A stretch of DNA of 64,000 nucleotides from Lachnospiraceae bacterium. Its GTDB lineage: Bacteria > Bacillota > Clostridia > Lachnospirales > Lachnospiraceae. The stretch is taken from assembly GCA_014804445.1 (NCBI GenBank), contig JAAUZU010000006.1, forward strand, positions 1 to 64,000, written 5' to 3'. Below the pieces are notes generated by a model. That model ran no database searches, was not told the DNA's origin, and was given only the letters and a program-made list of their open reading frames with translations. The position numbers and the translations under genes are program-made. Positions 30,962 through 33,412 of the stretch are shown here, in pieces (within the stretch, counting starts at the first letter, position 1; every line of letters begins with the position of its first letter).

Positions 30962-31963
30962 ATGTCATATATTGACCTGATTAAGCAGAGGGCAAAGGTT
31001 GACAAGAAGACAATTGTACTGCCGGAGTCTAACGATAAGAGAACCTTGCTTGCCGCTGCAAAGATTTTGGAAGAAGGGATTGCCAACATTATTATGATTG
31101 GCGATGAAGAAAAGATTATGGACGGTGCCGGCTGGCTTGAGGTTGACCTTGACGGCATCACAGTCATCAATCCCAAGACGACGGACAGGCTTGATGAGTA
31201 TGTAAATTTACTTTATGAGACCAGAAAAGCAAAGGGCATGACGCCGGAGAAGGCAAGGGAAATCCTCTTAAAGGATTATCTGACCTTTGGTATTGTTATG
31301 GTAAAGAATAACGATGCCGACGGCATGGTAGCGGGTGCGTGCCACTCGACAGCGGATACGCTTCGTCCCGCTCTTCAGATTTTGAAGACGGCGCCCGGCG
31401 TAAAGCTGGTTTCCGCGTTCTTTATCATGGACACGGTGATGAAGGATCAGGGAGAAAACGGCACGTTCTTGTTTGCAGACTGTGGTCTGAATCAGGATCC
31501 GACACCGGAAGAGCTTGCGGCCATTGCGGATACCTCTTCCAGAAGCTTTAAGTCACTGGTGGGTCCCAAGCCGGTTATCGCTATGCTGTCCCATTCCACG
31601 AAGGGCAGCGCAAAGCATGCTCTGGTAGACAAGGTAGTGGAGGCGACAAAGATCGCGCAGGAGCAGTATCCGCACCTTGTACTGGACGGTGAACTGCAGA
31701 CCGATGCGGCGCTGGTTCCTTCCGTTGCCAAGTCAAAGGCTCCTGGCAGTCCGGTTGGGGGCAGGGCAAACATATTGATTTTCCCGAATCTGGATGCGGG
31801 CAATATCGGCTACAAACTGGTGCAGAGACTGGGCGGCGCGGAAGCATACGGCCCCATGCTGCAAGGCATTGCCAAGCCGGTAAATGACCTGTCCCGCGGC
31901 TGTTCATGGGAAGATATCGTAGGCGTAGTAGCCCTAACAGCAGTTCAGGCACAACTTGTGTAG
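30962..31963 (+). CDS. pta: Phosphate acetyltransferase
   Basis: This 333-residue enzyme converts acetyl-CoA and phosphate to acetyl phosphate, which acetate kinase turns into ATP and acetate. It has the short form without the regulatory N-terminal domain found in enterobacteria. Conserved segments include VLPESNDKRTL, GMVAGACHSTADTLRPALQI, MLSHSTKGSAKHA and LIFPNLDAGNIGYKLVQRLGGAEAYGP. AAAGGAGAAGGG precedes ATG 30962. It is followed by ackA, but a 252-base gap holding a large palindrome separates them. This gap is longer than in typical tightly linked pta-ackA pairs. Confidence 0.96.
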   Translation: MSYIDLIKQRAKVDKKTIVLPESNDKRTLLAAAKILEEGIANIIMIGDEEKIMDGAGWLEVDLDGITVINPKTTDRLDEYVNLLYETRKAKGMTPEKAREILLKDYLTFGIVMVKNNDADGMVAGACHSTADTLRPALQILKTAPGVKLVSAFFIMDTVMKDQGENGTFLFADCGLNQDPTPEELAAIADTSSRSFKSLVGPKPVIAMLSHSTKGSAKHALVDKVVEATKIAQEQYPHLVLDGELQTDAALVPSVAKSKAPGSPVGGRANILIFPNLDAGNIGYKLVQRLGGAEAYGPMLQGIAKPVNDLSRGCSWEDIVGVVALTAVQAQLV

Positions 31964-32012
31964 TAGTAGATAGTAGATAGGCAATTGCGAAAATCCGATT
32001 TCTGTAGATCGA

Positions 32013-32150
32013 ATTGTGCAGATTGTATACTTCATAAGCAGACCCTTGCTTACCGTCGGTACTTAGCTGCCGTGTTTTGGCAGCTTATGTACCGCTACGG
32101 TAAGCTCGGAGCGAGAGCGAGTCTGCGTTGAAGTATACAATCTGCACAAT
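32013..32150. repeat. 138-bp imperfect palindrome between pta and ackA
   Basis: The outer arms are a perfect 21-bp inverted repeat: 32013-32033 (begins ATTGTGCAGA) and 32130-32150 (ends TCTGCACAAT). Nested inside are further complementary blocks in the right order: GCAGAC/GTCTGC (32038-32043, 32121-32126), GCTTACCGT/ACGGTAAGC (32048-32056, 32097-32105), GGTAC/GTACC (32058-32062, 32089-32093) and AGCTGCC/GGCAGCT (32065-32071, 32079-32085). About 96 of 138 bases can pair into one long hairpin on either strand. It has no ORF and no clear target-site duplication. It could be a dispersed palindromic element or an mRNA-stability or processing structure within the pta-ackA message. Confidence 0.8.
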
Positions 32151-32215
32151 GACACTTGCAGTATAACGAGTTTAGCAGATGCCTATATAGTGATGGATAG
32201 AGAAAGGAAACAGAT

Positions 32216-33412
32216 ATGAACATATTAGTAATCAATTGCGGCAGCTCGTCCTTAAAGTTCCAGCTTATCAATGCAGAAAATGAAAAGCTGATTGCCAAGG
32301 GACTCTGCGAGAGAATCGGCATAGACGGAAGCAAAATTTCTTACACGCCTGACGGCGGCGAAAAAGAGGAGAAGGAAGTGCCCATGGGCAACCATACGGA
32401 TGCGATTCGTCTGGTGCTGGAAGCACTGACCAATGAAAAGACCGGCGTGGTAAAGAGCCTTGCGGAAATCGGCGCGGTAGGGCATCGCATTGTGCACGGC
32501 GGAGAGAAGTTTGCAAAGTCCACCGTGATTGACAGTGAAGTGCTTGCAGCGATAGAGGAGTGCAACGACCTTGCGCCCCTGCACAACCCCGCCAATCTGA
32601 TTGGCATCAATGCCTGCAGGGAACTGATGCCGGACACCCCCATGGTAGCGGTATTTGACACGGCGTTCCATCAGACCATGCCGGATAAGGCGTATATGTA
32701 CGGCCTGCCATATGAATATTATGAAAAATACAAAATCAGAAGATACGGTTTCCACGGCACCAGCCATTCCTATGTGAGCAAGAGAGCGGCTGAAGTGCTG
32801 GGTAAGAAATACGAGGATTTAAAGATTATCGTATGTCATCTGGGCAACGGCGCCAGTGTTTCCGCAGTAATGAACGGCAAATGTGTGGACACTTCCATGG
32901 GTCTGACGCCCTTAGAGGGACTTATCATGGGAACCCGCAGCGGCGACATCGACCCTGCCATCATTGAGTTTATCGCGCATAAAGAAGGCAAGTCCATTGA
33001 TGAAATTATGTCTGTGTTAAACAAAAAATCCGGCGTGCTCGGGCTTTCCGACAATCTTTCATCCGATTTCAGGGATTTGGAGGCAGGCTATCATGAAGGC
33101 AGTGCAAGAGCCATTAACACCATGGAGACCTTTGCTTACAGGGTGGCAAAATACATCGGTGCATACACTGCAGCCATGAATGGTGTGGACGTTATCTGCT
33201 TTACGGCGGGCGTCGGAGAGAACAGCGCCTTTATCCGCAGTATGATTTGCAACAACTATCTGGGTTATCTGGGCGTGAAGCTGGATGAGGAAGCCAACAA
33301 GAAGCGTGGTGAGGACATTGCGATTTCCACGGCTGACAGCAGCACCACCGTTATGGTGATTCCTACCAACGAGGAGCTTGCCATTGCGAGAGAAACTTAC
33401 AGACTGGTATAA
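32216..33412 (+). CDS. ackA: Acetate kinase
   Basis: This 398-residue member of the ASKHA superfamily converts acetyl phosphate and ADP to acetate and ATP. The N-terminal phosphate loop is NILVINCGSSSLKFQL. Further motifs are VGHRIVHGGEKF, AVFDTAFHQTMP, RRYGFHGTSHSYV, CHLGNGASVSAV and TAGVGENSAFIRS. AGAAAGGAAAC precedes ATG 32216. No convincing promoter is seen in the gap after pta, so it probably depends on read-through across the palindrome. It ends before a strong terminator. Confidence 0.97.
   Translation: MNILVINCGSSSLKFQLINAENEKLIAKGLCERIGIDGSKISYTPDGGEKEEKEVPMGNHTDAIRLVLEALTNEKTGVVKSLAEIGAVGHRIVHGGEKFAKSTVIDSEVLAAIEECNDLAPLHNPANLIGINACRELMPDTPMVAVFDTAFHQTMPDKAYMYGLPYEYYEKYKIRRYGFHGTSHSYVSKRAAEVLGKKYEDLKIIVCHLGNGASVSAVMNGKCVDTSMGLTPLEGLIMGTRSGDIDPAIIEFIAHKEGKSIDEIMSVLNKKSGVLGLSDNLSSDFRDLEAGYHEGSARAINTMETFAYRVAKYIGAYTAAMNGVDVICFTAGVGENSAFIRSMICNNYLGYLGVKLDEEANKKRGEDIAISTADSSTTVMVIPTNEELAIARETYRLV

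Follow-up and report, generated by a model that had tools for sequence, protein, structure and literature searches.

ERIC and Correia-type MITEs are palindromic, intergenic, non-coding repeats. Integron attC sites are conserved in structure and variable in sequence, and are recognised as folded single strands. In the cited parts of two reports on Bacillus cereus, the bcr1/BCR repeats are approximately 100-400 bp long and bcr1 occurs in dozens of copies (PMC6542083, PMC2267715). The main text of one account of REP sequences (PMC3733652) has no match to six Firmicutes-related names. A search of the open-access literature, with most subscription papers outside its scope, found no account of the repeat described here in Lachnospiraceae. 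The repeat lies between pta and ackA in a Lachnospiraceae genome; our best reading is that it represents a new family of structured miniature transposons.

A folded repeat between pta and ackA

A sequence-only reading of the window (the whole 64,000-nucleotide stretch of DNA that was analysed) reported a palindrome at 32013-32150. The palindrome is real and is longer than first described. Copy alignment defines a repeat unit of 208 bp (Table 1); in 30 aligned copies from the host genome the common unit runs from TAGGCAATTGCG to GATGCCTA, past both of the original limits. The perfect inverted repeat that was taken as its outer boundary exists, with a length of 22 bp instead of 21. The unit is bounded by imperfect terminal inverted repeats of 18 bp.

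Table 1. Features of the pta-ackA region (positions in the window)
Feature	Position	Strand	Basis
Whole putative mobile palindromic element, class B copy	31978..32185	+	Full-length match to covariance model R1; copy alignment stops at same limits
Left terminal inverted repeat TAGGCAATTGCGAAAATC	31978..31995	+	Consensus TAGGYAATTGCGAAACTC, common to other species
Right terminal inverted repeat GAGTTTAGCAGATGCCTA	32168..32185	+	
Left inner arm, perfect 22-bp inverted repeat	32013..32034	+	Covaries with right arm, 21 copies
Right inner arm, perfect 22-bp inverted repeat	32129..32150	+	Paired in fold; covariation, 21 copies
Conserved folded core (model R2)	32040..32125	+	R2 match at C6:32040-32125, E 1.5e-24 (this core is itself among the 61 rows from which R2 was built); covariation, 61 cores
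Core stem CGGTAC/GTACCG, TTA/TTAT internal loop, variable hairpin GCTGCC-loop-GGCAGC	32057..32094	+	
Side hairpin GC-GAGA-GC, GNRA-type loop	32111..32118	+	GNRA in 59/61 cores (count leans upward; see text)
pta, upstream gene	30962..31963	+	ORF; name from the sequence-only reading; homologues adjoin ackA in relatives
ackA, downstream gene	32216..33412	+	ORF; name from the sequence-only reading

The nested complementary blocks noted originally are recovered in the fold as 6+2+9+6+8 pairs plus a 2-bp side hairpin. The core, of approximately 86 nt, consists of a bulge, an internal loop, a variable 6-bp hairpin and the GNRA-type side hairpin. When 32003-32160 is folded as RNA, the free energy is -87.7 kcal/mol (z -11.2), whereas 200 dinucleotide shuffles give -43.0 (sd 4.0); the earlier impression of more order than chance holds. 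Folding of the complete unit as DNA yields z scores of -11.3 for one strand and -11.8 for the other.

The element starts 14 bp after the pta stop codon and ends 30 bp before the ackA ATG; the sequence AAAGGA ahead of ackA (32203-32208) is intact. No sigma-70-like promoter is found at 31900-32260, in agreement with the original remark that evidence for an ackA promoter downstream is weak. An intrinsic terminator, also thought improbable at the outset, is rejected: there is no T-run, and the only terminator-like site at 31900-32260 is weak and lies inside the core.

Copies in the host genome

The host genome (G000; 3.58 Mb, 45 contigs, 87% complete) contains many further copies. A DNA search finds at least 47 matches, with 40 of 131 first-look candidates scored. 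Model R1 was built from 21 of 30 fetched copies (alignment A1), those with N letters or cut ends being left out. Searching the genome with R1 gives 148 rows on both strands of the palindrome, which were merged by hand to 84 places at E<=1; a check shows 0 remaining overlaps. Match lengths are 76-231 bp, and 77 of the 84 places are at least 195 bp long; the last two are short and weak. The repeat is therefore short, multicopy and free of a transposase gene, as is typical of MITEs.

Contigs C16, C20, C34 and C35 end within copies, which indicates that the assembly breaks at them; these four places may be only two copies, each cut in half. N letters are also present within several copies (e.g. 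L003, L016, L019, L024). Together, the contig ends and N letters suggest that copies are unresolved repeats in the assembly.

The gaps occupied by 77 copies in the host genome are tandem in 61 cases, divergent in 13 and convergent in three. A preference for operon gaps seemed striking at first; it is discounted since the gene pairs of the window itself have a similar distribution (45 tandem, 6 divergent, 5 convergent). At the named loci, whose cores were found by exact pattern, convergent gaps are if anything commoner than in the background (12/55 vs 48/403, p 0.054). Six of the 84 places and eight named-locus copies fall inside an ORF call made by a crude ORF caller.

Spread and covariation of the core

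Model R2 is based on an alignment of 61 cores (A3; one row skipped). It finds the core in 113 of the 250 family genomes searched, representing 112 of 249 genera, often with at least 17 matches per positive genome. In a phylum-wide sample only four of 299 genomes are positive, and all four belong to the same family. DNA search detects the core in 18 of 36 same-genus relatives and in 0 of 24 genomes from other families of the order. With 84 places in the host genome, this spread and the stem covariation described below, the suggestion of a dispersed palindromic family is borne out.

The exact core pattern occurs in at least 112 stretches of bacterial contigs. Among 80 matches listed, 69 are named Lachnospiraceae, Butyrivibrio, Acetatifactor, Agathobacter or Lachnoclostridium; the other 11 carry the labels Gastranaerophilales, Clostridium, Clostridiales, Clostridiaceae or bacterium, and may be loosely named or mislabelled MAGs. 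There is no support for carriage by phage or plasmid: viral contigs have 0 exact matches, 50,697 phage records have two partial matches (both unannotated) and plasmids have none.

The apical core is kept from genus to genus; the ends and arms are variable. When 27 fixed pairs are scored over the 61 cores, 84.7% of cells are paired (69.6% when shuffled), doubly changed cells in stems number 299 (116.8 shuffled) and the covariation score is 0.378 (0.130 shuffled, at most 0.121 slid), with the caveat that kinship among sequences can beat shuffles without structure. Further pair types are not enriched (64 vs 61.5 shuffled; 104 of 500 shuffles reach 64). Because named-locus cores were found by exact pattern, the pattern columns are conserved by choice; P5, P2, outer P3 and the side hairpin lie outside the pattern. 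In 59 of 61 cores the side loop is of GNRA type, and its closing pair covaries. This count is biased upward, since row ends of alignments A2 and A3 were placed with a GNRA-like motif (A2, for which the motif was required, combines the window with one copy each from 45 of the 51 genome prefixes). A P5 variant with tandem G-A mismatches is found in 13 of the 61 cores. The arms also covary with each other among the 21 host copies. Compensatory changes, proposed at the outset as a check, are thus present both within the host genome and between genera.

Such covariation could arise from template switching in quasi-palindromes instead of selection. The palindromy would then be neutral, with the arms corrected against each other during replication and only the core and ends selected. 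This is possible, if on balance doubtful. In some genomes, neighbouring copies (L283, L285) have arms that are unrelated yet self-complementary, as template switching would produce; however, covariation extends to the 6-bp P5 and the 2-bp side hairpin, where template switching would be less expected.

Tandem arrays of the core are seen in one genome, G175: four cores with a 164-bp period at L288 660-1250, and three with a 187-bp period at L287 865-1340.

Ends, target duplications and a second palindrome

Copies in the host genome have terminal inverted repeats of the GARTTTYGCAAHYRCCTA type, as expected of MITEs. The terminal motif is found at 109 sites (<=2 mismatches) compared with three for the reversed control. 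In six other genomes, TAGGYAATTGCGAAACT ends are found at 12 to 84 sites (controls 0 to 4).

Target-site duplications of approximately 12 bp, a further property of MITEs, are recognisable in a subset of copies. In the host genome, five of 75 copies have flanks that agree in at least 10 of 12 bases, against a mispaired null of 0.00036 per copy; nine of the 84 places were left out as short, contig-end or doubtful, and most of the 75 show no recognisable duplication. In other species, an 11-bp repeat (<=1 mismatch) lies beside the inverted ends in seven of 70 copies, compared with 1, 0, 1 and 0 in four mispaired controls; these 70 are drawn from 84 copies, the rest having flanks that are too short. 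Six of the seven duplicated copies have ends of the TAGGYAATTGCGAAACTC type and L173 differs. The repeat is exact over 11 bp in L214 (two copies) and L231 (one copy), and a perfect 12-bp duplication was judged by eye in L123 (G036). No recognisable duplication flanks the window copy (4 of 12 bases match), which is consistent with an old insertion. In several species the cores lie in arms without recognisable TAGG ends; mobility by such ends is therefore shown for some lineages only.

In genome G064, inverted end pairs occur approximately 288 and 360 bp apart (e.g. C15:22047-22335 and C36:31431-31791), pointing to further element sizes or composites.

A second palindrome, class A, has the same ends as class B and a different core. 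It is approximately 142 bp long (e.g. L109 601-742, which is C8:189090-189231 of the host genome), and many of the terminal-motif ends in the host genome belong to it. Among 77 class B copies, 25 have a class A element just upstream that faces the same way, with best-scoring spacers of 8-16 bp. A composite of the form A-spacer-B was considered and rejected, as the match of the spacer to the outer flanks is unconvincing (1/25 at >=9/12). By DNA search, class A is present in four of 250 family genomes: the host and three with partial matches.

The pta-ackA gap in relatives

The sequence-only reading proposed that the palindrome might set the ratio of Pta to AckA. As a cis regulator acting through RNA processing, it would be well placed in the gap of a two-gene pathway; its fold is very stable and ackA has no clear promoter. 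The relatives argue against this. The ackA locus was sought in 22 same-genus relatives and found in 20, and in none of the 20 does the pta-ackA gap hold the core, either by eye or by pattern. The locus in G017 has one core-pattern match with four mismatches, outside the gap; in the G020 gap an end-like stretch is visible by eye, with no score by pattern at <=3 mismatches. In the host genome the element occupies 83 other places, by other genes and in both orientations. A dedicated role in the Pta:AckA ratio is rejected on the basis of the core-free gaps, and regulation of this kind is very improbable. The element may have a side effect on ackA expression.

The pta-ackA intergenic region is 252 bp in the host and 45 bp in the closest relative, G015. 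Subtracting the 208-bp element leaves 44 bp, close to the gap in G015; the gaps of the relatives and the window flanks are not alike letter for letter. Rather than serving these two genes in particular, the hairpin between pta and ackA is probably one copy of a parasite-like repeat found throughout the genome.

Other sequences are found in this gap in three relatives. L146 (G019) and L151 (G014) have a similar small reading frame, starting MKNKL, which looks like a short membrane protein. In L148 (G018) the gap is filled by tandem copies of a different GC-rich repeat, which indicates that more than one type of repeat has struck the pta-ackA gap.

RNA or DNA

The core might instead act as RNA, with a mobile carrier having spread a structured small RNA or cis element through the family. 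The strong stem covariation and the GNRA loop with its covarying closing pair are compatible with this, as is an excess of wobble pairs on the top strand over the reverse in P2 (26 vs 9) and P6 (2 vs 0). However, wobble is balanced in P5 (9 vs 11; wobble makes up only nine of 312 standard pairs) and in the host arms (6 vs 8), and is reversed in outer P3 (5 vs 38). In counts of mismatches over whole arms, the named loci are even (119 vs 113; 69 of 84 copies) while the host genome is skewed (57 GT vs 115 AC; 58 of 59 copies). Since the host skew is repeated in mispaired controls and the named loci are even, wobble asymmetry fails as a strand test and decides nothing. Mismatches without consistent strand bias would also fit correction of the arms by template switching.

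Of the copies that lie between co-directional genes, 25 in the host genome have the core strand in sense and 36 in antisense orientation; at the named loci the counts are 14 and 23. The pooled counts (39 vs 59, p 0.054) lean antisense if anything; gene orientation comes from a simple ORF-calling script, so that single assignments are rough. Lack of a sense preference and of a consistent wobble bias together argue against a device acting in cis on mRNA. Nor does the element belong to a known RNA family: at the gathering score, Rfam release 15 matches only LSU rRNA and one tRNA in the window, and around the element there are three sub-threshold hits of 14.6-18.2 bits. A structured RNA is accordingly rather unlikely. 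The GNRA loop looks like RNA, but DNA too can form very stable mini-hairpins, of the d(GCGAAAGC) type, and we tentatively favour a DNA hairpin over RNA for the core.

Search for a mobilising enzyme

No transposase with matching ends is found by an end-pair scan of the loci. None of the ORFs beside unpaired ends reads as a transposase by eye, and inspection reveals no autonomous partner in the rows listed for G036, G064 and part of G065, and no inverted core pair flanking a transposase in other genomes. When pairs of these ends separated by 0.6-4 kb were sought as a sign of an autonomous copy, the one hit (L235) proved to be two element copies in a single locus.

Two transposase families were searched, Y1_Tnp (PF01797) in 25 genomes and DDE_Tnp_1 (PF01609) in seven. 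DDE_Tnp_1 was chosen because a duplication length of approximately 12 bp fits some IS4 relatives. Seven such genes are found in five of the seven genomes, and none has element ends in the DNA around it; an IS4-type partner of this family is rejected on these grounds. None of the Y1_Tnp genes fetched is flanked by element ends either. Near one fetched transposase gene there is a single end with four mismatches (L311). A class B element lies beside a Y1_Tnp fragment in L304 (G065 C129); none of the other Y1 loci scanned has such a neighbour.

The Y1_Tnp search bears on whether the repeat is a REP/REPIN-type palindrome moved by RAYT (Y1) transposases. The edges of the core read CGTC...CTACG; CGTC and, on the other strand, GTAG resemble two REP superfamily tags. 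Tagged REPs are described in the cited portion of PMC3733652, and recognition of single-strand hairpins by Y1 enzymes in that of PMC6006769. Several results oppose this explanation. Y1_Tnp is missing from nine of 17 core-positive genomes, including the host (0 matches in a genome that is 87% complete), and it is about equally common with and without the core (8/17 core-positive vs 4/8 core-negative genomes, the latter having no core match by DNA or R2 search). A REP is a palindrome of 20-40 bp whose GTAG or CGTC tag is left unpaired, whereas the present unit is 208 bp and its tag letters are paired except for a CT bulge. Furthermore, target duplications of approximately 12 bp are not expected from Y1 transposition. 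A RAYT partner is rejected, and a REP/REPIN origin is very improbable.

Interpretation and comparison with known systems

Terminal inverted repeats, duplications in a subset of copies, dispersal, lack of coding capacity and core-free gaps in relatives together identify the repeat as MITE-like; it probably belongs to a family of non-autonomous DNA transposons. The transposase acting on the TAGGYAATTGCGAAACTC ends would be supplied in trans. The element would have landed in a pta-ackA gap of approximately 44 bp, just ahead of the ackA ribosome site, and may persist there since it is tolerated.

What a plain MITE leaves unexplained is that, across genera, conservation is highest in the interior. 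The folded core and complementary stems may be kept for mobility or maintenance of the element and not for neighbouring mRNAs; the hairpin would be read by a protein as single-stranded or extruded DNA. These structured miniature transposons are probably recognised in folded form. The fuller proposal is more tentative: a family-wide group of elements that move by way of a hairpin read by shape, with a conserved core, freely changing but pairing arms, inverted ends and approximately 12-bp duplications.

If this interpretation is right, many genomes of a main gut and rumen family carry an apparently undescribed repeat, in which the folded core is shared to a greater degree than the sequence. Such a repeat would account for some assembly breaks and would mislead annotation of RNAs and promoters between genes. 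It would also provide a natural data set on palindrome arms, in which selection could be set against template switching. Recognition by shape would make it a structure-recognised transposon outside the known single-strand systems (IS200/IS605, RAYT, attC). Once found, the mobilising enzyme would reveal whether a hairpin whose arms change freely can be a requirement for transposition.

Like ERIC and Correia-type MITEs, the element is palindromic, intergenic and without coding capacity. It differs in its conserved multi-helix core, which spans some hundred genera while the arms change; to our knowledge, ERIC and Correia repeats have nothing of this kind. It resembles attC sites in that structure is kept while sequence varies, and attC is read as a folded single strand; unlike attC, it has inverted ends and target duplications. 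REP/REPIN sequences, as presented in the cited parts of PMC3733652 and PMC3116915, are also dispersed, extragenic, hairpin-forming palindromes; they are much shorter, have an unpaired tag and are linked to RAYTs. The bcr1/BCR repeats, in the portions of PMC6542083 and PMC2267715 used here, share the element's size, copy number, mobile traits, stem-loop and restriction to one bacterial group; their mobility is tied to a TTTAT motif, whereas the present element has 18-bp inverted ends, approximately 12-bp duplications and a different host family.
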